The notes beneath the pieces were generated by a model. The model was not told the origin of the DNA and did no database searches. It was given only the letters and a program-made list of their open reading frames with translations. 22,367 bases of DNA from a virus, in IMG/VR virus record IMGVR_UViG_3300021424_000259, positions 1 to 22,367 of that record; one strand, given 5' to 3'. A program made the translations under genes and the position numbers. This document shows positions 1 through 16,600 of this stretch, piece by piece (position 1 is the stretch's first letter; each line of letters starts with the position of its first letter).

Positions 1-20
1 TAAAAGTTTTGACTATCAAA

Positions 21-278
21 ATGTCAAGTCTTGAGCAGTATAAACCACCAGTGCCAGCAACTGCCGCAGCGGCACCTATGGGCGTCAGTAACCAATCCGC
101 AAATGGGGATGGCGGAATAATTATCAACAATATTATGGCTGCTTCTGCTGGCGGCGGGGGTGGTGGTGGGGGTGCATCTTCACGCAATGGTTATAGAACT
201 GCTGACACTGCTGCTCCACCAGACGCAAGTGGCACAGCAGCATTATTAAATCGTTCACCATTCGCAGTTTATAGATAA
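21..278 (+). CDS. Small Gly-rich protein, probable structural or hypothetical
   Basis: An 85-residue protein that I do not recognise. It begins MSSLEQYKPP, has an Ala/Pro-rich stretch, then a run of eight glycines at about residues 44-51 flanked by Ala and Ser, and ends in NRSPFAVYR. It looks mostly disordered, with no catalytic motif, signal peptide or membrane segment. ATG at 21 was chosen. A TTG at 9 is in frame, and the frame is open to the window edge, so the true start could lie upstream. No clear ribosome-binding site is visible. Its stop codon overlaps the ATG of the next gene by one base (TAATG), so the two are probably translationally coupled. By location it may be a baseplate accessory protein, but that is inference only. 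Confidence 0.55.
   Translation: MSSLEQYKPPVPATAAAAPMGVSNQSANGDGGIIINNIMAASAGGGGGGGGASSRNGYRTADTAAPPDASGTAALLNRSPFAVYR
150..173 (+). repeat. G-rich tract encoding eight glycines
   Basis: Eight consecutive Gly codons (GGC, GGG and GGT) form a guanine-rich run in an otherwise AT-rich region. A very similar run of eight Gly codons occurs at 2342-2365 in the gp5-like gene. Such tracts are prone to replication slippage and could form G-rich structures. At the protein level they probably act as flexible linkers. Confidence 0.8.
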
Positions 279-1654
279 TGGCTAATTTAAACGCACAAGT
301 AAAAAAAGTTGAAATAATTGATAAGTCTGGTGTGTCGCATTTATTGACAGGCAACAAACCAGAAGCACAATTACTCAATATAAAAATTGTAGAAAGTATT
401 GAGTATTCTACAATGATAGCAGAATTGATGGTTATGGATACTGGCGTAAACATGATTTCTTCTATACCCATTGTAGGATTAGAAAAAGTAAAAATGACCC
501 TATCTGTTCCTGAAATGTCAGAAACAGAATATAAATATGAATTTCAAATTTATGCAATTCGAAATAGAATTGTTTCCGATAGAAGTCAAGCATATATTTT
601 GGATTGTGTATCACCCGAAGCAATAACTAATGAAGTAGTTAGGATAGGCGCTACTTTAGCAGGACCAGCAAATGAATTGACTAAGAAAATTATAAAAGAA
701 AATCTGTCATCAAATAAAAGAATATTTGATGAAGCATGTCTTTACAACATAAAAGAAATACCAGCATTAAAAAGACCGTTTGATGTAATTAATTCTTTCT
801 TGCCGCGTTCCATATCATCTGCTGCATCATCAACATCTGGAGCAAGAAGTTCTGTTTCTTCTTCATCGAGTGGAAGCAATACAGCAAGGACTGCTGCCGC
901 AACTGCTCGCACTGCTGCCGCAGTGGTTTCTGGTTCGGCGGGTTATTTGTTTTTTGAGACGTATAATGGATATGTGTTTAAATCTATTGACAGAATCTTG
1001 ACAGAAACACCATATCGATTAATGTATGCTTACAGTAAAGCAAACGCATCTGAGAATACTCAAGCACCTAATGTGATTTTAAATTACAGTTTTGTAACGC
1101 AAGAAAATATTCTTGAGAAATTAAGACATGGTGTATATTCCTCGATGATGTCATTCTTCAATCCATCTACTTTGCAATATGAAGAATACTTCTTTGATTT
1201 AAGCAAAGAATATCCACAAATGGTTCATTTAGGAACCGACAATGCTTTACCTGACAATGTTAAAAACTTGTCACAATATCCTTCTAGAGTAATTTTTCAA
1301 TCATATGATAATGAGACATTTCATAACTCTGCATCTCCAGCAAGTTCTGGTACACAGTATCCAGATTTTAAGAAGCAATGGATGGCACAAGCAATTAGTA
1401 GGATGCAGATACTAAATAATCAGGTATTGAATATCCAAGTCCCATTGAATTTTGAGTTGAGGGCGGGCGATAAATTAAATATTAAATTACCTAATCTTTC
1501 TGTAGAATCAAAAAGAAAGGAAGATATGTTTGATGAAACAAACAGCGGGTTATATTTAATTAAAACTATTTCATATGAAATCATAAGAGATAATACAAGA
1601 GGACTGGTAGCAGTCAACAACATTACTTTAATCCGCGATAATTTAGGAAGTTAA
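278..1654 (+). CDS. Baseplate hub protein, gp27/GpD-like
   Basis: A 458-residue protein resembling contractile-tail hub proteins (T4 gp27, GpD-like). The N-terminal ~175 residues are a beta-rich domain (the LMVMDTGVNMISSIPIVG stretch). After it comes a low-complexity Ser/Ala/Thr insert at about residues 178-221. The core then resumes with GYLFFETYNGYVFKSIDRIL and a C-terminal domain with LRAGDKLNIKLPN and GLYLIKTISYEI, the kind of ending seen where these hubs contact the spike. In the T4 model this trimeric protein joins the tail tube to gp5. The position just upstream of a gp5-like gene supports this. T4 gp27 is about 390 residues, so the insert explains much of the excess. The start ATG overlaps the stop of the previous gene. 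The family call rests on context and remembered motif similarity, not on alignment. Confidence 0.68.
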   Translation: MANLNAQVKKVEIIDKSGVSHLLTGNKPEAQLLNIKIVESIEYSTMIAELMVMDTGVNMISSIPIVGLEKVKMTLSVPEMSETEYKYEFQIYAIRNRIVSDRSQAYILDCVSPEAITNEVVRIGATLAGPANELTKKIIKENLSSNKRIFDEACLYNIKEIPALKRPFDVINSFLPRSISSAASSTSGARSSVSSSSSGSNTARTAAATARTAAAVVSGSAGYLFFETYNGYVFKSIDRILTETPYRLMYAYSKANASENTQAPNVILNYSFVTQENILEKLRHGVYSSMMSFFNPSTLQYEEYFFDLSKEYPQMVHLGTDNALPDNVKNLSQYPSRVIFQSYDNETFHNSASPASSGTQYPDFKKQWMAQAISRMQILNNQVLNIQVPLNFELRAGDKLNIKLPNLSVESKRKEDMFDETNSGLYLIKTISYEIIRDNTRGLVAVNNITLIRDNLGS

Positions 1655-1870: not shown

Positions 1871-4729
1871 ATGATACCCGAGCTAAACACCCCAGTAGGA
1901 TTTTTAGGTAGAGATGGTTTCTACTGGTGGATGGGTCAAATTGAAAAACGCGATAACGTAAAAAAAGCTTATCGTTATAAGGTCAGGATTGTTGGGCAAC
2001 ATGTTATGAGTTGCTCATCGGTAAGTCCTGATGATTTACCATGGGCAAATGTAGTGTATCCTGTTACTGCTCCAAGTAGAGAAGGGAATAGTAATTCAAC
2101 ACCAGTTAAATTAGATAAAGGTGACTGGGTTCTTGGTTTTTTCCTTGATGGGCAGACAGGTCAACAACCAATGATTTTAGGTGCGCTACACAAAATTGTT
2201 GGTAGTACACCCAACCCATCTTTTTCCCCAAATTCTTATGGTAACAGTTGTTTAGCTTTCAAGAGATCTTTTGCCCCAACAAATACATATGTATCGGTGC
2301 CAAAGAGCGAGCAAGACCCTGCTACGCCTCCAAGCAATCCAGGCGGCGGTGGTGGTGGTGGTGGTTCCACACCCCCAGTAATTAGTGGTTCTAAAGAGGA
2401 AAATACCAAAACTAATCAATCAGGAAGACACCACTGTGTTATTTTACCTGATGCTGGTTGTAAAGACCCAAAGAAAAAGCAAAGTGATTTTGAAAGAGTT
2501 TTATCAGAATTTTTCGCATCAGTTCAAAATAATGGTGGGCAAATAGGAACACAGATTCTTAGCGATGTTACTGGAACACTAGTAGATTATTCCAATGCAG
2601 CAAATGGATACATCACTAGAATATTTGGATTAGCTAGAGCATATATTGGTGCAGCAAAAGCAGAACTATTCAAGCAAATCAAAACTGGAGTTTCTTCTTT
2701 ACTCAAAATATGTTTGGGTATTCCAACGCCAACACCTCCAGACGCCACTGGTGCAAAAGCTCCAAAAACCAGTAGCAAAACTGGAATTCTTGGTAAACTA
2801 ACAACTTTTTTGAATGATTTGTTGGGTAAAATTAATTGCCAGATAGTAGATTTAGAAACTGCAATTTTAAACTTTTTAACAAATTTAATTTTTGGTTTGA
2901 TTGAAGATATTGTGAACGGTGCAACTTGTATTGCTGAATCTGTAGTTTCACAAATTTTATCAGAACTAGAGTCATTTCTTTCAGGAACAGTTGCTACAAT
3001 TCTTGGCATATTGCAGGATATTTTGTCGATTGTAGCTTCTCCACTGAATATTCTGGGAGCAGCATTACAATATATCTTTCAGTTATTTGGCATCTCGTGT
3101 AGTGGACCGTCAAATGAGTGTTTAAGTGAGGAGGAACGAACATATTGCACAAAACAAAAAACAAAACCAGGAGCATCAGATTTTGCAGCTTTAGATCGTT
3201 TGATTGCCGACGTATCTAAGAATGGTGTACTACCTCTTCAAACATCATGTGAGTCTGCATTGGCGAATCCATGCCCAGTAGCAACAGAAGCTTATGTGAC
3301 TGGCGGTGCCCCAGTAACTACACCACCAGATGATTCTTTAACTGTTCTTCCTCAAGTTGTAATTAGTGCTAGTCCACCTTCAGTTCCATATAACGGAAGC
3401 ACCACGATTACGTGGACAAGCACAAATGCAGATTCCGTTGTTTCTTCTAACTTTGGTGCTACGACAACAAGTGGGAGCCTATTGGTAAATGATTTAACGT
3501 CTGATACCACTTATCAAATAGTTGTGCAGGGTTCTGATGGTGCTGGAGGAACTTGGAATACTAGTGCTAATACTGTAGTATTTGTGGGAATACTAGCATC
3601 TCCAGCACCTCCTGACCCACCACCATTACCTATTCCTGGACCACCACCTGTTTCAATATCTTCATCTATTGTTGGAACTATTGTGGTTGCTGGTAGTTCT
3701 TCAATTACATCATTGATTGGCACAATAGACACAATAACTGTAGACTCCATTGCTTATGTAAGCATTTCATCTACTTCTAGTAATTCTTTTGTTCCTACTC
3801 TTGCGACTAGCATTGCCATTGGCACTACTCCCATACCTCCTTCTGCAGTCCAGGTACAATATTCATTGACGACTAATAAGACTTTAGTTACAACATCAGA
3901 TACGGTAACATTTACATTTAGCGTTGTCAATGGTTCTGTTCCTAATGGTACTGTATATGATTATTTTATTTTTGGTTCGGTTGAATTGAATGATTTTGTT
4001 GCTAAAACCATAAAAGGAACTATGACCATGACAAATGGTACTGCCATAGTTAACATACAAACTGCATCTTCTTTTAGTTTTTATGGCGAAAAGCCAATGT
4101 CTTTTATTGTATTGCAATCTGGAAATTCATTAGCTTCGGTTGGATTTACATTATCAAATCCATCCCCAATAATTCCTACTTCTCCTATTACTCCAGCAAT
4201 AATAAAACCAGACTTGTGTAAGGTAGAAGTTGATAGTAAAGGAAAAATTATGAGTGTTGGTATTTGTGTAGTTGGTACACCATATGCAAGAAAACCAATT
4301 ATTACAATAACAGGAGAGGGGCAGGGAGCATCTGTTGTGCCTGTTTTAGATGAGAAAGGATATCTAGTAAAAGCAAAGGTATTGAGACCTGGCATTGGAT
4401 ATGTTCCTACTAGATATAATCCGAATTGCATTATCGATGGGTTTATTATTATAAGACCTGGAGTTGGTTACACGCAACCACCAACAATCTATGTCGATGG
4501 CGATGATACAATTGCTAAAGCAGTTGTCAATTCTAGCGGTTACATGATTGATGTCGAAGTAATAAATAAAACTAAGACATTTGACACATTTCCAACTATT
4601 GAAATAATTGGTGATGGGATGGGAGCAAAAGCAATACCAAGCTTGGGTTGTCTTGACGAAGATTCATATAAATCATATGTCTCTGAGGTTGCTCCTTCTG
4701 GTACAGATAACGTCATTGACTGCCCGTAA
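1871..4729 (+). CDS. gp5-like baseplate hub/spike protein without visible lysozyme
   Basis: A 952-residue multidomain protein. Residues 1-115 resemble the OB-type N-terminal domain of gp5/GpV/VgrG hub proteins (start NTPVGFLGRDGFYWWMGQIE, then KGDWVLGFFLDG and QQPMILGALHKI). Next come an eight-Gly linker (158-165), a long hydrophobic helical region with several cysteines (about 200-430), and an Ig-like beta domain (about 496-575). A Pro-rich linker (about 578-595) and another beta-sandwich-like segment (about 655-760) follow. The C-terminus (about 780-952) has repeats with G-x-G-Y-x-x-P and P-x-I-x-I-x-G cores. T4 gp5 is about 575 residues with a central lysozyme domain; I see no such domain here. 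The gene lies one base after the 70-aa gene and six before the next. In the virion it should sit at the tip of the tail tube. Confidence 0.72.
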   Translation: MIPELNTPVGFLGRDGFYWWMGQIEKRDNVKKAYRYKVRIVGQHVMSCSSVSPDDLPWANVVYPVTAPSREGNSNSTPVKLDKGDWVLGFFLDGQTGQQPMILGALHKIVGSTPNPSFSPNSYGNSCLAFKRSFAPTNTYVSVPKSEQDPATPPSNPGGGGGGGGSTPPVISGSKEENTKTNQSGRHHCVILPDAGCKDPKKKQSDFERVLSEFFASVQNNGGQIGTQILSDVTGTLVDYSNAANGYITRIFGLARAYIGAAKAELFKQIKTGVSSLLKICLGIPTPTPPDATGAKAPKTSSKTGILGKLTTFLNDLLGKINCQIVDLETAILNFLTNLIFGLIEDIVNGATCIAESVVSQILSELESFLSGTVATILGILQDILSIVASPLNILGAALQYIFQLFGISCSGPSNECLSEEERTYCTKQKTKPGASDFAALDRLIADVSKNGVLPLQTSCESALANPCPVATEAYVTGGAPVTTPPDDSLTVLPQVVISASPPSVPYNGSTTITWTSTNADSVVSSNFGATTTSGSLLVNDLTSDTTYQIVVQGSDGAGGTWNTSANTVVFVGILASPAPPDPPPLPIPGPPPVSISSSIVGTIVVAGSSSITSLIGTIDTITVDSIAYVSISSTSSNSFVPTLATSIAIGTTPIPPSAVQVQYSLTTNKTLVTTSDTVTFTFSVVNGSVPNGTVYDYFIFGSVELNDFVAKTIKGTMTMTNGTAIVNIQTASSFSFYGEKPMSFIVLQSGNSLASVGFTLSNPSPIIPTSPITPAIIKPDLCKVEVDSKGKIMSVGICVVGTPYARKPIITITGEGQGASVVPVLDEKGYLVKAKVLRPGIGYVPTRYNPNCIIDGFIIIRPGVGYTQPPTIYVDGDDTIAKAVVNSSGYMIDVEVINKTKTFDTFPTIEIIGDGMGAKAIPSLGCLDEDSYKSYVSEVAPSGTDNVIDCP
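2342..2365 (+). repeat. G-rich tract encoding eight glycines
   Basis: Eight Gly codons (two GGC followed by six GGT) encode residues 158-165 of the gp5-like protein, between its OB-type domain and its helical region. This is the second octaglycine tract in the baseplate block; the first is at 150-173. The near-perfect trinucleotide repetition makes length variation by slippage likely. Confidence 0.8.
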
Positions 4730-4735
4730 AAAATT

Positions 4736-6250
4736 ATGGCAACGAGTTGGTTAGAGTTACAATCAGATTTAAAACGAGGCGCAGCTAGACTTGCCGTTCC
4801 TAAATCAAATTTAGGATGTGGTTTAACATACACTACAGGTACGCCTGGTAGTATATTAAATTTACCAGACCCGTCTGTATCTGCTGCTAGTGTTACAGAC
4901 GCACTGAATTCAGTACAAGATGCAATAGATCAATTTGGGTCTGATGTCATGTCAGTCCTCCAATCTATTGGTGCATTTGTACCCGATGGATTATTTACTG
5001 CAGACTCTGCTGTAACTTCAACAACAGTTGATAGAGATGCGCCAGATGCTGTTGATCAACATAGTACTGAAACGATGGCTGGTGGTAATATCGCAGTTAC
5101 TACTGGACATGATACGCAAACAGGCGATTCTTTCTATCAAATACGAACATCATCTGGCTCTGGTATAACATTTGATACTCAAGGTGGGTGTTTTATCACA
5201 ACAGCAAAAAATCCAGATGAAGATCCAGATACTGGAAAGTTTGTAGTTACTGCTAATGGCATGGCATCATTTAAGTGTCGTGAAGGAGTACTCTGGGAAA
5301 TTAATAACGATAATAATATTAGAAAAACTTCGTTTGGTCTAAACCTTTTAAATGGTGCATTAGAAATAGCAGTTAATGTTGGTGATATTACAATTAGGGG
5401 AAATGATAATATTATTATTGAAGCAGGAAAATCATTAGAACTAAAGGGGTCTGATGTTAAAATACATGCTGGCACAGGAACTGGCACACCAGCTAAGGAC
5501 GGGAAACCAGTTACTGATGAACAATCAGGTGTTGTTGAAATTAAAGCAGGTGTTTTTAAAAATTCTTCTATAACACAACAAAATATAGAAGGAGCTAGTT
5601 TTCATAAAGTAACGGGTGAAAAAACTTTTGTCATGGAAGATTCACAGGCAGCATTTACAATTGAATCTAAAGGTAGTTTAGAACTCAAGTGTAAAGGAGA
5701 TATGATCGAAACTATTGGTGGCAAAAAACTCACCAAAGTAATGACATATTCACCTGCAGATTTAGTTTTAGATGGCGGCATTCCTCCATTATCAATAATA
5801 ACAGATCAATCTGCTGGATATTATATCACAAATGCTCAACCAATGGTTCCAGCTGATTCTGCAGAAGCCGACCTCCCAGGAACATTATTACAAATAGTTG
5901 GTAGTGGGCCAGGTGGTGCGGGTATTAAAGTTGATGCTGGTATCAAAGGAAATATTATTTTTACTACTCAAACAGGTAATATTGCTTTTGCATCTGAAAC
6001 TTCATTATACGCTGATATGACACAACCTAGTGTATCGCCACTTGATCCTAAGTTGATGAAAGGATTAAAACCAGGAATGTATATTGGTGCTGCAACAAAA
6101 GCTGTTCAAGTATATAGCGATACTGAAGTTGCAATGGGATTAACCGTTGGTCTTGGTCCACCGAAGGCTCCATTCACGGATAATTCTGTTTCTGTAAGTC
6201 AGAAAGGAACTTATATTACTGATAGAACAAGAGGAATCTATCTGAACTGA
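4736..6250 (+). CDS. Virion structural protein, beta-rich, candidate baseplate spike
   Basis: A 504-residue protein. The N-terminus (about 1-110) is soluble and partly helical (SWLELQSDLKRGAARL). The middle and C-terminal parts are made of short alternating beta strands such as GDITIRGNDNIIIEAG, KSLELKGSDVKIHAG and FTIESKGSLELKCKGDM. This strand-turn pattern recalls the triple-stranded beta-helix of the gp5 C-terminus and of VgrG spikes. Because the upstream gp5-like protein seems to lack that needle, this gene may supply it. It starts six bases after that gene with no clear ribosome-binding site. A promoter begins two bases after its stop. No enzymatic motif was recognised. An alternative is another baseplate or fibre protein (cyanophage annotations use names such as VrlC for structural genes in this area). 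Confidence 0.62.
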   Translation: MATSWLELQSDLKRGAARLAVPKSNLGCGLTYTTGTPGSILNLPDPSVSAASVTDALNSVQDAIDQFGSDVMSVLQSIGAFVPDGLFTADSAVTSTTVDRDAPDAVDQHSTETMAGGNIAVTTGHDTQTGDSFYQIRTSSGSGITFDTQGGCFITTAKNPDEDPDTGKFVVTANGMASFKCREGVLWEINNDNNIRKTSFGLNLLNGALEIAVNVGDITIRGNDNIIIEAGKSLELKGSDVKIHAGTGTGTPAKDGKPVTDEQSGVVEIKAGVFKNSSITQQNIEGASFHKVTGEKTFVMEDSQAAFTIESKGSLELKCKGDMIETIGGKKLTKVMTYSPADLVLDGGIPPLSIITDQSAGYYITNAQPMVPADSAEADLPGTLLQIVGSGPGGAGIKVDAGIKGNIIFTTQTGNIAFASETSLYADMTQPSVSPLDPKLMKGLKPGMYIGAATKAVQVYSDTEVAMGLTVGLGPPKAPFTDNSVSVSQKGTYITDRTRGIYLN

Positions 6251-6727: not shown

Positions 6728-6994
6728 ATGAAATACACACTATCACAAGCATATGTCTTTTATATGGGACAGGTTGTGCGTATGTATTTCATACAAAATC
6801 TTCCATATACGTTTGATGAATTACCTCATATAATTCAAGATCATCCATCAGTTCAAACTGAAGCATTATCTCATCAAGATTATGATGATGAGGACATGTG
6901 GAGAGTATCAAATTATTTAATTATGGAAGAAATGCATCCTTTGATGTTTGACTTAGAAGTAGAAAACCCCGAATTGTTACCTAAAGATGATTGA
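6728..6994 (+). CDS. Hypothetical acidic protein upstream of cpeT
   Basis: An 88-residue protein of unknown function. The N-terminus (MKYTLSQAYVFYMGQVVRMY) is hydrophobic and aromatic but too polar for a clear membrane segment or signal peptide. The rest is strongly acidic and His-rich, with HQDYDDEDMW near the middle and an acidic tail PELLPKDD. A GTGGGA at 6717-6722 is a plausible ribosome-binding site. The last eight bases overlap the start of cpeT, so the two are likely translated in a coupled way. That makes a shared role possible, but nothing in the sequence shows it. Confidence 0.7.
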   Translation: MKYTLSQAYVFYMGQVVRMYFIQNLPYTFDELPHIIQDHPSVQTEALSHQDYDDEDMWRVSNYLIMEEMHPLMFDLEVENPELLPKDD

Positions 6995-7472
6995 CGAATT
7001 TTGTGAATACTTTGAAGGAACTTTTGAAAATAAAATGCAAGCAATGTGCGAACCCACAAAGTTTGCTATGATTGAACTACTTCATATTCCTTATGGTGAG
7101 CGTAAATATCGTTGTATTCAACGTTATTATGTTGACAAGAATCAATATCGAAATACTATTATTTCGGTAGAACAACAAGATTCTAGAATTCTTGTAAAGA
7201 ACTATAAGGAAAAAACGCCTAACAGTGAGCAGTTGACATACCTAGAAGGATGTGATACAATATTTGAGAAGATAGGCAATGAGTTTCACGGCAAAAATCT
7301 TTGTAAGACCTGCTATGTGAATTGGTCGGGGAAACAAACCTACCTTCAAATAGAGAGTATTCTTGGAAGAGGATACTATCGCGTTATAGACAAAGGATAT
7401 GACGTAAACACTGACGAACATATATGGGGTTCCTTTTATGGGAGCTTCCAGTTCGTCAAATCGCCTGAGTAG
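6987..7472 (+). CDS. cpeT: CpeT-like phycobiliprotein lyase (T-type)
   Basis: A 161-residue protein of the CpeT/CpcT family. These lyases bind a bilin chromophore and, in cyanobacteria, help attach it to phycobiliproteins of the light-harvesting phycobilisome. Family hallmarks are clear in the second half: LEGCDTIFEKIGNEFHG (host proteins have LPGCN...GNSFKG), SGKQTYL (host KGQKTYLDSEF), and DKGYDVNTDEHIWGS followed by GSFQFVK (host DRGRDLETDAHIWGS, GPFEFVR). The upstream part has RYYVDKNQYRNTIISVEQ and ILVKNYK as the expected beta-barrel strands. It is shorter than the roughly 200-residue host proteins. A cyanophage CpeT homologue has been studied (phage P-HM1) and binds phycoerythrobilin. 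The start overlaps the preceding ORF by eight bases, and the TAG stop lies inside tRNA-Thr. It is an auxiliary metabolic gene, probably acquired from a host. Confidence 0.9.
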   Translation: MIDEFCEYFEGTFENKMQAMCEPTKFAMIELLHIPYGERKYRCIQRYYVDKNQYRNTIISVEQQDSRILVKNYKEKTPNSEQLTYLEGCDTIFEKIGNEFHGKNLCKTCYVNWSGKQTYLQIESILGRGYYRVIDKGYDVNTDEHIWGSFYGSFQFVKSPE

Positions 7473-7632: not shown

Positions 7633-10600
7633 ATGCCATTAACAAGATTAGATAATCTCATCTCAAGTAAAACTGGAAAATATCTATACGTTTCACCTGA
7701 TGATTTTAACGCTAGCGATGCTTTAGATAATAGAGGCAATTCACCTCTAAGACCATTTGTAAGTATTCAACGTGCTTTTCTTGAGGCTGCAAGATTTTCG
7801 TATCTTCCAAACGTAGATAATGATAGATTTGACCAGTTTACTATTATGCTTGCCCCTGGCAATCACTATATTGATAACCGTCCAGGAATCAGTGATGTTG
7901 CTTCTCTGCCAGTATTTCAGTTTAATCAATCAACAAATGAATGGGAAGCTAATTCTAATGTAAGTTTTAATTTATCTGACCCAGATAATATTCTATATAA
8001 GTTCAATGGTCGTGATGGTGGTGCGACTATTCCTAGAGGTACATCATTAGTAGGTACAGACCTTCGCAGAACTCAAGTTCGTGCTCTATATGTTCCTGAC
8101 CCTGCTGATACTGATGTTCCACGTACATCACTTTTTAACGTAACTGGTGGTTGTTACTTCTGGCAGTTCACCATTCTCGATGGTGATTTTTCTTCTGGTT
8201 CTCCTTTATATGATGCCACTTCTGCTGTAGGTAAAGTTTATACTCAACCAAATAATAGCACAAACAAAGCTATTCCTGAATTCTCTCACCACAAAATTAC
8301 AAACTTCGTGTTTGCCGATAGAGAAGATTTGGGATTACTATACAGAAAAATTGCTCGTGTATTTAGCGATTATCAACCAACAATTGATGATGTATATGTA
8401 GAAGGTTCAGTCAATCCAGTTACTGATGCTTGGTTGTCTACTGTAACCTATCAAATCGGTGATAGAATTCTTTATAATGGTGATGCTTATATTGCATCTG
8501 CTTCAAGTACAAACGTGTTGCCAGATAGTGATGAAACAAAGTGGGGTCGTCTTGTAATTCGTGGTAGAGAGCTTGATTTTAGAGTTCAAGAAAATAGAAT
8601 CGTTGGTCCATTACAAGATGCTATCAGAATTGATTCATTAAAAATTCAAGATTCGGTTCCTGTTGGTGTTGTAACTGTTACCGCAAGAACAAAAATTAAC
8701 CATGGATTGTTCCCTGGTCAGTTTGTTGCTGTTACAAATAATGGGTTGAGTATTAATTTGAATGGTGTATTTAAAGTTGCAACTATTAGTCAAACAGATC
8801 CAAAAGAATTTACCTATACGGTTCCTACCACTGCTAGCGGTTTAGGACTTATTTCTGGGGCAGTTTATAATGCAGTTTCGAGTCCTGCTTTAGATACAAA
8901 CGCCACAATTCAATCGGAAATAGACTCGGTAGAATCTGCTTCACCATACGTCTTCAACGTTTCAATTCGTTCTGTGTGGGGTATTTGTGGTATCTGGGCA
9001 GATGGTAGGAAAGCAACTGGTTTCAAATCAATGGTTATCGCCCAATATACGGGTGTTTCGCTACAGAAAGATGACCGTGCGTTCATTCGCTACGATGAAT
9101 TTAGCAACACATGGAATCAGGCACCGTTAACTGATGCATTTGCTACAACTCCTTATCACATCAAAGGTGATGCATATTGGAAAGATGAATGGCGCAACTT
9201 CCACGTTCGTGCTTCAGATGACTCATTCATTCAGAACGTTTCTATTTTCGCTGTAGGTTTTGCTGACCACTTCTTACTTGAGAGTGGTGGTGATATGTCT
9301 ATCACCAACTCCAACTCAAACTTTGGTAACACTTCGATGCATTCGAAGGGATTCAAAGGATTTGCGTTCAACCAAGATAAGGGCGGATATATCACTGATA
9401 TTATTCCACCCCAAACTCTATCGACTTTAAATATTTCTAAGCAACAATACTATTCTATTGATGCTCTACTAACAAGAAGCACAACCAATAACCCATCAAC
9501 ATCCAAGTCAAAGCTTTATATTGCTTCTGAAGATGCTAGAAATCCAGAAAATCGTCCAGCAGCTTCTATTGCTGGTTATAGACTAGGTGCAAGAAGAAAT
9601 GAAAAATTATATGTAAAACTAGATACAACTGGTGCTAAGTTTGGTGAACTTAATCCTTCTGGATTTAAGAAGTGGACATCTAGATTAACCACACTAACAC
9701 CTACCAGTGCACGTTCAAGTGAGGATGCAACTAAGTTGTATGTTGCTAGCAGCACTGGTTTTGCTGTTAACAACATTGTAAGAGTTGATAATGAGTATTT
9801 CCTTGTTACTGCTGTTACCCCAACTTATCTTTCTGTAAGCAGAGCACAATTAAATAGTCTTCCAGCAACGCACACAGCAAGCACTGCTGTAGTTAAGTAT
9901 GTTCAAAATACAACTGTATCTACTGTTGTTAATGAAACTGTAGATGCAACTGAAACCATTTTAACCTTAACCAGTTCTGCTGGATTTGCTGCTAATGGTT
10001 ATGTACAAATCAGCAATAATCAAACCTCAATTACTGAAATTGTTAGAGTTATTTCTGTAGAAAGTAATGATATTGTTGTACAACGTGCTGCCCTTGGAAC
10101 GACTGCTGTTTCTCAACCAGTTAGTTCTGTCGTAACTGCAACTTTCTTATCAAATACATTCTCAGCCGCATCTCCTGCAGTTTCCACAACATTAACGCAA
10201 GCATATCCACAACTTATTAGTGCAACTAATACTTTAAGTGAAACTGATTACAACCTTGCTCAAGATGCTGCAAACCTAATTGATTCTAACAAAGCATTTA
10301 TTCAAGCGGAAGCATTTGGATACGTTCTTGAAAAGTATCCTTTCCTACAAAATTTACCATACGTCAATCCAAACATCACAGCAGAAACTGGTAGATATCG
10401 TGATGGAAGCAACTTAATTAAAGCAAACCGCCAAGAAATTATTGATTATGCGTTTGCTCAAATGCAAGCTGCTTTCCCAACATTCACTGTTCCTGGTGTA
10501 AATGGCAATGACAAGTGCAAGCGTGATATTGGACTTGTTGTTGATGCTATTTCACAAGACTTATATGATGGTGGTAACTCACACACAGTTGATGCAACCA

Positions 10601-13600
10601 AATTATATTTTGATAGCAACGGAGCATTAATTTCTAATGGTTTACTTGGTGAAGAAATACAGTCTGTTTATGCTTTTAATCGTGCAAGAGATTGGGCAAA
10701 GAAAGCAATCTCTAACTTATTAACTAGCACATCATTATTGTCTGTAAGTTCTATAACTGCTAGCGGAACAACTATTACAGTTACTACCAGCACTCCACAC
10801 AACCTAACCAACGGAAGCACAATTACTGTTGGTGGTGCTACACAATCTGGTTATAATGGTAACTTCACTGTTTTAGCTGCTGGATTAACTTCAACTCAGT
10901 TTAGATATACTGCACTCACAACCCCTGCTGCTTCGCCTGCGACTGGCGCATATTATGTTTCGACAATTATTATTGATCCAGTTAATGATGATGTAACTGT
11001 AGGTAGATTTAAAGACGCTTATAATTTAATTAATTTAAACCGCCAAGAGATTATTGATAGAGCATTTGCTGAAATTGCTATTCAATATGACGAAGCTGCA
11101 TGGGGAAATAATTGGATTGTTCCTGGTGATACAGTCACTACAAATCTTTCTCGTTATCTTGATGCATACAGATTAATCCAAAAAAATAAACAAATTTTAA
11201 TTGAAACTGCATATGCTACTGTAGTTGCTTCCCCACCTTCACCAGCACCCACTGACTTACTAAACAAGTGTAAGCGTGATATTGGTTTGTTTATTGATTC
11301 AGTATCACTTGACATTTTCCTTGGCGGCGGTAATAAGTATACTCGTAAATTCATTCAACAATATTTCTCCAACAATACAACTTTACTTACAAATGGTCTT
11401 GCTGGTGAGATAACACAGTCAATCACAGCATTTAATAAAGCTCGTGATGCAATGAAATCAGCAGTAACAAATACTCTTGCTGCTTTCTCTGGAGTTGTTA
11501 CGTCAAGTCCAGCTGGTGGAACTTGGCAGGATGGTACAACTGGTACTAAAGTTGTATATACAGACCTTACTATTTCTTCTGGTCCTGCTACTTTTGGTGG
11601 AGGTGGTGGAAACATTGCAAATAATAATGCTGCCGCTTGTTCTGATGTCAGAAGTGCAATCGATACTTTAGCATCGCTGGTCCAGACAACTTTAACTGCT
11701 TCGCCTCTTGATTTAAGTGCGATGACTGCAGAATCAAATGGAATAGCGGAGGGTCCAGGTGAACTCAAGTGTATGCGCGATATTGGAATTATCGTTGATT
11801 CTGTTGCTCAAGACCTTTTCTGGGGTGGTAACGAGTTTACGGTTGGTGGTGTAAGAGAATACTTTAATCTTGCTGGCACACCAATTTCAAACGGATTGGT
11901 CGGTGAAACACTTCAATCTGTAATTGCTTTCAACGCAGCCAGAGATGTGGTTAACAAAGCAGTAACAAATCAATTATACGGTAAGAATCTAAACATTTCT
12001 TATGGTCCTGCTACTGTTGGTGGAAGTGGAGGAAACGTCACCTATACACAGTCTGGTAATAGTGCAACATGTATTGATGTTCAAAATGCTGTAACTAATC
12101 TATTTGCTGTTGTAACTGATGTAGTTTCTGCTGGTACACTTAATAATCTACCATTAGTAGATAATGGTGATTCTGATTGTGCAAACGTAAGACAATCAAT
12201 CGATAGTTTGGTTGGTATCTTGACAACAGCTCTTGCAAATGGTAATCTAACGAATCTGCCCAATAGAAACGAAGGAACTTGGTCTCAGATTGGTGAGAAT
12301 AGCAAGTGTAAGAGAGATATTGGTTACGTTGTAGAAGCAATTACTTCTGACCTAAGACTAGGTGGAAACGTTAGCGCAATCAATGCTGCTGAATCATACT
12401 ATACAGCAGTTCCTTCTGGTTATGTTTTAGATTATATTGAGAATGAAAGACCACAGACAATTGATGCATTCAATTATGTAAGAAGTTTGGCTATCTCAGC
12501 AATGAGAAACCACAATACATTCATCAATAATGCATCTACAACCAATGGTTCTCCAATTGTTACTGTTGCAAGTACGATTGGTTTGGCAGTTGGTATGCGT
12601 GTAAGAAGTGTCGATGCTATTCCAACTAGTTCAACTTCCACATATAATTTCACCGCAACAATTCCATCAACCGCCTACATCAAAAAGATTGGTGATGGTA
12701 CAAATGGTCTTGCAACTAATCAAATTCAACTTGGTGTTCAAGGAAGCAAATTTGATAGTGGAACAACTGTAAATGCTACCTCAACATCTTCGACGGTCAA
12801 GTTGTATGTTGAACTCACGCAAGGAGCCTGGGCTAACCCAGAAGTGGCACCAGTTGTAGATACTGCAGTCATCCAAGATTATAATTACCTCGCTGCTGGA
12901 GACGCTTCTACAGGTGCTCCAGGTGGAGAGTGTGCATCCGTTGCAAACACTATTGTTAACTTGACGAACGTTATCAGTACAGTTCTAAACAATGGTGTTG
13001 GTAGTGTTCCTAGAACTTATTCAAGCTTGAATACAGGAAGTCTAGCACAAAGAGCAACTCTATTTACACTGACTGAAAATGATAGTAGCGGTAATCCAAC
13101 AACAAACCCACACGATTTAGAAACAGGAACTGCTATTAGATTAGTTCCTAGAGCAAAAACAGGTGTGCTGGTTGATAAGCGACTAATCAGATTACCTAAA
13201 GGGTTTGATACAAATACAATCTATTATGTAATTGCTCCTGGTAGAAAAACAGACCCATTTGATTATTCAAATAGCGTTGGATTTAATGGAGCAAACCAAC
13301 AAACACTAATGCTTGCAACGAGCGTAGAAAACGCTGCAGCTGGTATTTACATCTATTCTTCGGAAACAGATAACGTTGATGGAAATGTTGAGGTTGATGT
13401 TTATCAGTATGTTCTAGATACTTCATATGATTTACACAAATATCAAACAACTATTGCTAATGGTAGTTCTGAAATACTAGAAACTGCTGCTCCTCATATT
13501 TTTGATAAACCAGCAAACAATGTAACACCACAGAAAGTATTCTTCCGTGTTGCTAGTGATATTACTGGTTCTTCTCTGCCTACACTTTCTTCCACTTTTG

Positions 13601-16600
13601 GTGGTACTACAATTAGTAGCAAAGTTGAATATTTTGTACGCTATGTAAGTAGCAAGAGATTTAAGATTTACGAAACATTTGCGAATGCTCGTGATGATAT
13701 TAGTCCAGTTACTTTCCAACCAGGAAGCACTGCAGTATTCTACACATTTGCTAATAAGAAGAGAAGCCCAATGCGCTTTGATGCTAGCGTAGGTAGCACA
13801 GCAATTAGCGATAATGGTTGCTGGTTTATCAATACTTTATCTTCAAACAACCAGATTATTCCTGTTCTACAGACCAGTGGTATTGGTTGGGAATCAAGAG
13901 CAAGAACAACTGATACTTACTTTGAGCGTGTAGAAGATTCTCGTGCAAAAGAAGATAGAATTTATAGATTACGTTATGTTATTCCTAAGAATCTAAAAAC
14001 AGTTCGTGACCCTCTACGTGGTTTCGTTCTTAAGATTCGTACAGATGAAAAGAGAAGATTGTTACCACAAAAAATTCTTCTCAAACCAACTGCTGCTGGT
14101 GCATCTTTAGCAACAATTAATGCTCCTCTTACTGGGGAGCGTTTGGGGTTAACCTTTGCTGAATTGCAAGCTCTTAATCCTAATTATGATACTACAACTT
14201 ATGACCCATCACCATTTGGCAATCCAAAGAGAATTGAAACCACTTCTAAGGTGGCGTTTACAATTCAATCTGCTAGAAAGAAAAGAATTGCTGGTAAAGA
14301 TTATCTAGAACTTAAAGTATTTGATATTGGAATTGACTCGGAAGCTTACAAAACGCAGTTATTTACTACTGTCAGGATTTCTTCTCCACAGGGAGGAAAT
14401 GGTTCGTTTGTAGCAAGTATTCCTAATATTCAAACAGGTAATCCAAATGCTATCAACAAAATTACTTGGAGTGGTAATTCCAAAGGAACTGCATATGTTC
14501 ATTCATATTTTGCATATGAAAATGATTATTATCTAATCCTTAAAGATTTTACTGGTAATTCTGAAGTTGCTTATAATGAAAATGTAGCAACTACATTTAC
14601 ACAGGGTTCTGTAACTGCAACTCTATTAGATTCTCCTAATGGAGGAAGATCGGATATTAAAAATTACTTATATGTTGTTGAAGGTGCTAACGTCTACACC
14701 ATGACAGTTGGTGACACTATAAACGATGACAATGGTGTATCCTATACGATTGCTGATGTTGAAGATTCTGAAGAAATGGAAAGCACCTTCTATATCTTTG
14801 ATATCAATACAATTCGTAGAAGAATTGCTGGTCAGCAAGATGGTGTTTATTATCTAACATGCTTACGTGGTGATATTCGTCCATATCCAACAGGTTCTGG
14901 TGTAGGTGAAAACTTCAGAAACTTTAGATTCTCTCAACCTGTTTCAAAACTATATCCCGAGTTCTATAAAAATGACCCAGAATGGTATAAAGGAATTGAC
15001 CCATCAACCGCAACATTAATTGACCCACCTCCAACTATTTCAGCAGCGGATAACTATGTTCATGGTCTTGTAACAGTTAGCGATTCTAAAGGTTCCGTTA
15101 CTAAAGAAACTGTTCTTGATTTTATTTCTGACCCTGGTTCTGGAGTTTATACTTTCAGTGGCACAACTGCAATTCAAGCAAAAACAGGTGGCGCTTCAGC
15201 TGGTTCAGAAGCAAGAAAAATTACCATCAGTGGTAACTCACCATATCCAACCGAGAACAAACTGTTTGTAGAACTTCGTAGACCATCTATTGCTCGTTCA
15301 GGTAACCATACATTTGAATATCTTGGATTTGGTCCTGGTAACTACTCAACTGGTTTCCCAGTTCGTCAAGAAATTGTTCTTACTGATACTCAAGACTTCT
15401 ACGCTCAGGCAAAGAGAGAAGATGCTGGTATCGTATTCTACACTGGTTTAAACTCTAATGGTGACCTTTATATTGGTAACCGTAAGATCAATGCTATTAC
15501 TGGCGAAGAAACATTCCTAGAAAGAGCAGTTTTAACTGAATCGGAAGATACTACAGATAGTATTGGAACACTGGTAACCACATTTGACACGGCAGTTACT
15601 TTCAATAACATCATCACTGTTAATGGTGATGGTGGAGACATGGAAAGTTTCTTCAACTCTCCTGTTGTAATCAACAATGCTACATCGTTTGGGGCAGTTG
15701 AAAATTATCCATCACTCAAGATTATAACTGGCGAGGGAACTTCTGTTGGTTATGATGCTAAGTTAGAAAATAATATTGCTGGACAAAAGACTGGTGATAT
15801 TGTCATTCATCAAAATAAAATTTCTTCTGCAATTTTTGATTTCAATCCAAGAGGTACACAAGATTATACTCTAAGAGTTGCGCTATCAAATAGAACTCCA
15901 GACTTCTTGAATACATTTGGAGCAACAACGGGTGGTCCAACTCAACTACAAAATACTGATTTTGGAACTAGAGACCCACTCAAGTCTGGTGATATTCAAT
16001 TCAAGGGAGCACAGACATTATTCACTGGTTCTCTCGGTTGGGTTTATGCAAACGATTACATTCAGATTACAAATGTATCTGGCACAGGAACAACTCCACA
16101 AATTGTGGGCATTCAAGGTGCTGCAAGTGGAACAATTGTTAGATTGAATTGGAACACTGGTGTAACAAATACAAACGTTGGAATTACCACTGGTTCTCAA
16201 ATTAGAATTACTGGTGCTGTTGGAGCTCTTGCAGTTGTAAATGGCGTATGGCCTGTTTACAGTTCTACTTCTCAACCATTCAACGCTTCAAATAACTTTG
16301 TTGATATTGCCATCACTGCTAACTTACCAATTTACAATATTGGTTTGAACAGTGGTAAAGGATATCCTGTTGACCAGATTGCTCAACCATCTATTGATAT
16401 CTCTCGTTCAATTGCTGCATTCAAAGAAGTTGGAGTAATTGGTGCAGAGGCACTCAGAACAGAGACAGCAACAGTTGGTGACTACAAGTTAGGTATTAAT
16501 ACAGTTGCACGTTCTGCACATTCTGCATATCAAACTGCATTTGTTTCTTCCGAGACTACACCTAGAGCAAACTTAGATGTTGTTGGTACAGCATTCATCA

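Follow-up and report, generated by a model that had tools for sequence, protein, structure and literature searches.

A cyanomyovirus-type gp5 baseplate hub without a recognizable lysozyme, probably braced by disulfides, and wall hydrolases in upstream tail genes of many relatives

Introduction

In the sea, T4-like phages are common; how their cyanobacterial branch enters its hosts has largely been inferred from T4. The T4 hub protein gp5 combines an N-terminal OB domain with a Phage_lysozyme domain and fused Gp5_C needle repeats, and has no cysteine in the 561 amino acids (aa) examined. Here we describe a gp5-type baseplate hub protein of 952 aa, encoded at positions 1871..4729 (+ strand) of IMG/VR record IMGVR_UViG_3300021424_000259, a virus record of 22,367 bases that was analyzed over its whole length and is referred to as the window. 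The protein shares the N-terminal OB domain of T4 gp5, but carries 17 cysteines and no lysozyme domain that our searches could detect. It is an ordinary member of the large cyanomyovirus hub family PHROG 1922, and we consider it probable that it is a structural, T4-like cyanomyovirus hub that lacks a lysozyme and is braced by disulfides, with wall hydrolases carried on large upstream proteins (here called X and Y) and the needle encoded separately.

Several described hubs resemble it in part. The PHROG 1922 gp5 proteins of the cyanomyoviruses S-PM2, Syn1, S-CAM3, and Sf-FR1 are alike in domain order, invariant cysteines, gene neighbors, and a separate gene in the spike position; the window hub is 29-31% identical to those of Syn1, S-CAM3, and Sf-FR1 and has C783/C799, C281, and C468 in addition. 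The gp5 proteins of Vibrio phage phi-pp2 (KVP40 group) and Stenotrophomonas phage YB07 also have an OB domain and no Pfam lysozyme, but both keep fused Gp5_C repeats, and that of YB07 is without cysteine. The same two features are found in the Prochlorococcus and Synechococcus phages P-SSM4, S-RIM8, and S-SM2, but there the helical domain described below is weakly detected or not at all, and the P-SSM4 protein has only two cysteines. Anabaena phage A-1(L) gp15 is likewise the hub of a cyanophage contractile tail, but its hub is reported to bear its own enzymatic domains, namely lysozyme, endoglucanase, and peptidase (PMC10966104). Cysteines also brace the contractile tail of Agrobacterium phage Milano; there, the bonds described join sheath, tube, and baseplate subunits (PMC10811340), whereas those predicted for the window hub pair positions within the sequence of a single chain. 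Neither a lysozyme-less PHROG 1922 hub nor its cysteine pairs are reported in the literature searched, which mostly excluded subscription papers.

Results

The hub family has no recognizable wall hydrolase

The hub open reading frame (ORF) is intact, with boundaries at exactly 1871 and 4729, and the PHROG 1922 profile covers residues 9-952 (E value 2.7e-136), a full-length match beyond chance. For the window protein alone, Pfam Gp5_OB matched residues 51-116 with E 9.3e-5 and 23.1 bits against a cut-off of 25; the same domain was found at E ≤0.05 in 43 of 46 family members, and the family profile matched the solved T4 gp5 across profile positions 17-114 (E 5e-12). A model of the full-length hub matched the OB domain of T4 gp5 as well as many Ig-type proteins, while its top matches in BFVD were mainly cyanophage hubs. 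The original prediction, made by a model from the sequence without database searches, had proposed a gp5-like hub, and this is borne out by the OB homology and the PHROG 1922 match.

No Pfam lysozyme or peptidase matched the window hub at E ≤1, and no wall-hydrolase family matched any of 46 family members, window included, at E ≤0.05 when each was scanned singly (the 46 were drawn from 63 family proteins). With the same library, the lysozyme of T4 gp5 was detected (Phage_lysozyme, E 1.3e-12), which shows that a gp5 lysozyme is within reach of the test. M23, Lysozyme2, or GH24 profiles matched none of the hubs of 66 relatives, and Pfam found Gp5_C needle repeats neither in the window hub nor in the family tally. 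That the hub has no visible lysozyme had also been predicted, and no contrary profile match appeared in the window protein or the 46 members. Even so, the word "lysozyme" occurs in the annotation of 28 of 40 records among the matches listed (536 records matched). The PHROG 1922 name, "baseplate hub subunit and tail lysozyme", appears to be a misleading label, and the shared OB domain is probably how the term passed from T4 gp5 to this family.

Melnitz-3 shows another way of dividing gp5: its hub (L014:4986-8029) consists of two proteins, one with the OB domain and a VanY-like peptidase match below threshold (1.1e-4), the other with a Gp5_trimer_C match that is likewise below threshold.

Wall hydrolases in large upstream proteins

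In relatives, the gene order is X (~570-1,300 aa), Y (~720-1,240 aa), a gene in the gp27 position, the hub, and a following gene. X and Y proteins were taken from 47 loci wherever a suitable ORF was present, giving 34 and 45 proteins, respectively. Pfam families found among the X proteins, each of which may count under several hydrolase families, were Peptidase_M23 (14), Phage_lysozyme2 (6), Phage_lysozyme (6), Hydrolase_2 (4), Amidase_3 (3), SLT (2), and Glucosaminidase (1). Y proteins contained M23 (5), CHAP (3), Hydrolase_2 (2), Phage_lysozyme2 (1), and Glucosaminidase (1). Of the 34 loci that extend 7 kb or more upstream of the hub, 24 had M23, Lysozyme2, or GH24 there by profile search. 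These profiles were seeded from six loci, and four of the 34 (Syn1, Sf-FR1, L054, and L021) therefore match by construction, although Pfam also matched their upstream hydrolases. Many relatives thus carry one or more tail hydrolases in large upstream genes, in answer to the suggestion in the original prediction that a separate tail lysozyme be looked for.

Upstream of the S-PM2 hub (S-PM2p210), for example, where the upstream proteins are S-PM2p207 and p208, Phage_lysozyme2 (7.7e-26) and M23 (1.4e-15) were detected. In the clade closest to the window, locus L054 has M23 in a gene before X and both Lysozyme2 and Phage_lysozyme in X itself. The X proteins of Syn1 (6.1e-12) and L054 (2.2e-6) also matched a tape-measure PHROG family. 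The virion proteome reported for another cyanophage, S-CREM2, includes a long "endolysin" gene located upstream of the central-spike genes (PMC10665884). Outside the family, no Pfam hydrolase was found in the upstream proteins of P-SSM4 and S-RIM8, which were partly cut, and the annotated transglycosylase of S-SM2 had no Pfam match; that of S-CRM01 has a Phage_lysozyme match (4.2e-13).

For the window's own lineage, the link to an upstream hydrolase is indirect and passes through two contigs. L007 differs from the window by 7 bases over 12.7 kb, and it shares a 1,942-bp stretch of gene Y with L356 at 99.95% identity. The X gene of L356 contains M23 (1.2e-7) and a sub-threshold SLT match (0.0016), and it is solely by this linkage through L356 that an X gene is tentatively tied to the window lineage. 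The order Y, gp27-position gene, gp5, and spike is present in the window together with L007, and the order X-Y is seen in relatives.

L007 and L356 diverge inside gene Y, ~262 bases to the left of window position 1, and the hubs of the window and of L356 are only 32% identical. Two other window-type contigs, L005 and L006, start 141 and 126 bp to the left of this junction. Either hub modules have been swapped between near-identical phages or the contigs are chimeric at the shared stretch. A motif in L007 gene Y that looks like that of ADP-ribosyltransferases on visual inspection (H-G-T ... G-F ... G-E-G-V-Y, residues ~470-505) was rejected as a candidate; it had no Pfam support, and the PDB gave no more than two rows, both poly(ADP-ribose) glycohydrolase with E 0.4.

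Hub cysteines are gained and lost as pairs

Cysteine makes up 1.79% of the hub, compared to 0.34-1.64% of the five other large window ORFs that were counted. Conservation was assessed in 161 non-redundant full relatives, window included, drawn from 312 full proteins; near-duplicates (k-mer filters) and truncated ORFs were removed ahead of counting, and here also proteins missing any one of three domains. C323, C353, C410, and C951 were present in all 161, C417 in 160, C197 in 158, and C460, C853, and C927 in 150 each, the last three being jointly absent in 11 sequences.

The variable cysteines of the hub are gained and lost as pairs across these relatives, which is new here. Pairs were tested on a tree inferred with FastTree after removal of the columns in which cysteine is common. 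In the two-by-two tables a gap was scored as no cysteine (45 gaps in column 127 and 12 in column 189), and some misalignment is possible. The pair 48/127 ([[68,4],[0,89]]) allowed eight independent comparisons, in which the two positions changed the same way 7.8 times on average and the opposite way never (sign test, median p 0.008). Positions 189/426 ([[134,0],[1,26]]) changed the same way in four of five comparisons, with none opposite, and 783/799 ([[8,0],[0,153]]) in two of two; both are concordant, with too few events for a sign test. Each of 776/803 ([[23,0],[0,138]]) and 853/927 ([[150,0],[0,11]]) reflects one event. Control pairs were mostly untracked, with 48/189 giving one change in the same direction, one in the opposite direction, and six without change, and 48/426 likewise untracked. 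We also tried C281/C468 as a pair and rejected it: C468 occurs in all four sequences with C281 (11 with C468 in total), but the two did not track each other on the tree.

The pairs 776/803 and 783/799 are mutually exclusive, with no overlap between the 23 and 8 sequences that have them. Their index sums are 1579 and 1582, and AlphaFold2 (AF2) predicted strands at 781-787 and 793-800; in a rough fit, the two pairs may staple one hairpin. The divergent hub of S-SKS1 lacks the cysteines at 189, 426, 853, and 927, and keeps those at 197, 323, 353, 410, 417, and 951. This homolog has cysteines at 453/459, near the position of C460, so the absence of C460 is probably an alignment gap; the loss of C853/C927 is a single event. 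The S-PM2 hub is without the 48/127 pair, and that of Sf-FR1 has C48. As judged from sequence, the paired cysteines point to a disulfide-stabilized hub, and a set of disulfides is the simplest reading of them.

A cysteine-rich helical domain in the place of the T4 lysozyme

Where T4 gp5 has its lysozyme, the window hub has a predicted cysteine-rich helical domain (residues 185-475; 2423..3295, + strand), supported by conservation, AF2, and cysteine covariation. It is conserved in 98 aligned relatives with 26-57% identity to the window, and it can be recognized even in the very divergent S-SKS1 hub. AF2 predicted helices at residues 200-220, 240-281, 306-319, 328-380, and 393-405. The predicted local distance difference test score (pLDDT) by block was ~48-67 up to residue 380 and 33-37 at 381-410, with a mean of 64 for the full hub and 65 for residues 185-482 modeled alone with 99 sequences. 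The helical, cysteine-containing region of the original prediction therefore stands, given the predicted helices between residues 200 and 405 and the invariant cysteines.

The best 19-residue hydrophobic window had a Kyte-Doolittle mean of 1.78 in this hub (family mean, 1.59), which is borderline for a membrane helix, and charged residues are interspersed. A profile search of the domain against the PDB gave weak matches only (best, 2.8e-4). With the low-confidence model of the domain, Foldseek against the PDB returned nothing below E 2.4 and a VIA fold search nothing above Z 3.9; at this model confidence, the lack of a fold match shows nothing.

A separate gene in the spike position

A probable spike or needle protein of 504 aa is encoded directly after the hub (4736..6250, + strand), as judged from its position, its periodicity, and a profile match of a relative, with gp5C-like octads at aa 216-247. 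An ORF of at least 150 aa lies directly 3' of the hub in 87 of 99 loci. In stretches picked by us, hydrophobic autocorrelation at lag 8 gave p 0.0085 (aa 201-350) and 0.0005 (aa 281-345); over aa 101-504, lag 8 did not reach p <0.05 and lag 9 did. A close relative matched PHROG 4540 with E 4.5e-10; this family is named "baseplate hub and tail lysozyme", and the gene 3' of the hub has this same annotation in Syn1, S-CAM3, and Sf-FR1. A PDB profile search of the window spike was not significant (best, 0.074), and a comparison with the 87 following genes of the 99 loci gave few matches (21 rows at E ≤10, including its own copies). The product of 4736-6250 is probably a needle split off from the hub.

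Domain layout and gene neighborhood

The OB domain spans residues ~9-122 (1895..2236, + strand; Pfam, profile, and AF2 strands at 18-105), with the C48/C127 pair in it and just past it. A glycine- and proline-rich, low-confidence linker follows at residues 123-184 (2237..2422, + strand), with pLDDT <50 at 137-168 and partly low conservation. Past the helical domain, an Ig/fn3-like region at residues ~490-572 (3338..3586, + strand) is variable in the family and gave a weak Pfam fn3 match (E 0.1, residues 512-568). A Calx-beta-like beta-sandwich is predicted at residues ~660-763 (3848..4159, + strand; block pLDDT mostly 87-96), and by family profile, relatives have one to three copies of this domain. 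In several members, Pfam places Calx-beta domains after the helical domain and before the C-terminal one; Calx-beta matched 23 of the 46 hubs scanned, and the window hub itself has no such Pfam match. The C-terminal domain at residues 780-952 (4208..4726, + strand; AF2) contains C783/C799, C853/C927, and the near-terminal C951, and its G-x-G-Y repeats, PGIGY and PGVGY, lie inside the confident portion at 780-940 (block pLDDT 86-94). Both the Ig-like region and the G-x-G-Y repeats had been noted in the original prediction, the former now represented by the weak fn3 match and the confident beta-sandwich. Its view that the domain set is unlike that of T4 gp5 is confirmed, with helical and Ig-like domains instead of a lysozyme, although this architecture is not special to the window genome and is the standard layout in a large cyanophage family.

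The window begins with the 3' end of gene Y, in the tape-measure position (3..278, + strand), which is open at the window start and continues further in the window-type contig L007 (L007:2-2482), where it is also open at its 5' end. Next is a protein of 458 aa (278..1654, + strand) that matches PHROG 350, "tail protein" (E 4.1e-88). Genes of this kind directly precede gp5 in relatives, and from its position we infer that this is the gp27 equivalent and hub partner. The hub, the spike-position gene, CpeT, tRNAs, a giant ORF, and collar proteins follow, in an order resembling that of Syn1, S-CAM3, Sf-FR1, and S-PM2. The CpeT-like antenna gene (6987-7472; Pfam CpeT, 1.4e-23) adjoins the tRNA genes. 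In the giant fiber-like ORF of 3,946 aa (7633-19473), residues 927-970 match Pfam Phycobilisome with E 8.6e-6, which passes the curated cut-off; this is possibly a coincidence of helical repeats. In S-CAM3, a gene annotated as glutaredoxin (L002:13967-14158) lies ~0.8 kb past the spike-position gene, near the cysteine-rich hub.

Discussion

The hub family carries no hydrolase that can be recognized, many relatives have hydrolases upstream, and the cysteines of the hub come and go in pairs. The mechanism that we propose from these observations starts with the OB domain, which by homology to T4 would hold the hub to a gp27-type ring. The slot of the T4 lysozyme would be taken by the cysteine-rich helical domain, succeeded by beta-sandwich domains and the G-x-G-Y domain, and the needle would probably be a separate protein encoded next, leaving the hub with a structural rather than an enzymatic role. 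Disulfides C48-C127, C189-C426, C783-C799, and probably C853-C927 would brace it, with C197, C323, C353, C410, C417, and C460 as further likely partners. Peptidoglycan would be opened by hydrolase domains of X and Y, and in the closest clade also of a gene before X; these proteins are probably stored in or at the tube, given their tape-measure position, and the enzyme family would differ from phage to phage. Trimeric assembly, disulfides in the virion, the presence of X and Y there, and delivery of the hydrolases at infection are what we infer.

Several points weigh against this reading. The models of the helical domain are of low confidence, leaving room for a very divergent hydrolase there. 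Ten of the 34 testable loci have no M23, Lysozyme2, or GH24 upstream (one of the ten, L022, has weak Hydrolase_2 and SLT matches), and no Pfam hydrolase was found in X or Y of S-CAM3 and L071, although X of L071 matches the PHROG "tail associated lysin" (5.3e-8). The X gene of the window lineage lies outside the window and outside the contigs that carry its gp5. Shared ancestry makes raw cysteine counts link likely non-partners as well (189 with 460, 853, and 927; 715 with 814), and we therefore took support from the tree test alone; only 48/127 passed the tree-corrected sign test, and 853/927 and 776/803 are single events. Finally, seven cysteines are invariant or nearly so (197, 323, 353, 410, 417, 460, and 951), an odd number, and covariation leaves their partners unpaired.

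The lysozyme names on many hub records, hub domains without fold assignment, and the enzymatic domains reported for the A-1(L) hub (PMC10966104) could be taken to mean that the hub is a divergent enzyme, with a hydrolase in its helical or C-terminal part that profiles miss. We regard this as very unlikely, since none of the 46 scanned hubs had a wall-hydrolase match, recognizable hydrolases stand upstream in most testable loci, and the invariant residues of the helical domain across 99 sequences are cysteine, glycine, leucine, and one aspartate, with no glutamate and no histidine. Conserved cysteines could instead bind a metal or an iron-sulfur cluster. Iron is present in the spikes of P2, phi92, and Mu according to the Milano paper (PMC10811340), and the C410-x6-C417 spacing and the odd count of invariant cysteines would suit such a site, but gain and loss two by two fits disulfides better than four-ligand sites. 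Paired change says nothing about the hardly varying cysteines at 197, 323, 353, 410, 417, and 951, and overall we think metal binding unlikely.

Hydrophobic segments of tape-measure proteins have been proposed to line channels or to insert into membranes, and the helical domain might be a membrane-active element of this type, with helices that are freed after the needle pierces the envelope and then line a channel or insert into the inner membrane. Weak PHROG tape-measure matches were indeed obtained for the window (phrog_5493, 3.2e-4), S-PM2 (phrog_1535, 4.8e-5), and S-SKS1 (phrog_4200, 3.6e-6), a 19-residue window of at least 1.6 on the Kyte-Doolittle scale occurs in 48% of 67 family members, and an amphipathic pattern is seen in four of the five predicted helices (p 0.0025-0.044), with the longest, 328-380, at p 0.097. 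These matches, whose figures come without a shuffled-sequence control, are to many unrelated tape-measure families, as composition alone could produce, and the domain profile also weakly matches unrelated helical proteins in the PDB, such as a circular tendon repeat protein (2.8e-4) and a mannose-6-phosphate receptor binding protein (0.004). Charged residues make up 17-24% of the helical region in six members, and its invariant cysteines, together with the C189/C426 pair, suggest that this domain is compact and held by cross-links. The comparison with pore-forming or tape-measure-like folds suggested in the original prediction for residues 200-430 thus gave weak tape-measure matches at the level of profiles and, on a low-confidence model, no significant fold match. 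We consider a membrane-active helical element unlikely; membrane insertion or release of the helices is speculation, and the invariant cysteines speak no less for a structural domain braced by disulfides. Quite unlikely, too, is a redox-gated injector that would combine the two ideas, in which disulfides cage hydrophobic, tape-measure-like helices outside the host, reduction at or inside the envelope frees them to open the inner membrane, and exchangeable enzymes encoded upstream take over the cutting of the wall. If it were true, the hub and the wall-cutting enzyme could be swapped independently.

For the preferred reading, a structural and disulfide-braced hub, this analysis adds evidence for disulfide bracing and assigns the wall hydrolases to upstream proteins that vary. 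Relabeling the hub shifts the search for the wall-cutting enzyme of these phages to the large upstream genes, where several enzyme families replace one another, and these hydrolase genes are a plausible place for adaptation to host walls. The paired cysteines make a concrete and testable prediction of which bonds form and in which lineages. They also raise the question of whether redox plays a role in stability or triggering, as has been reported for phage Milano (PMC10811340).

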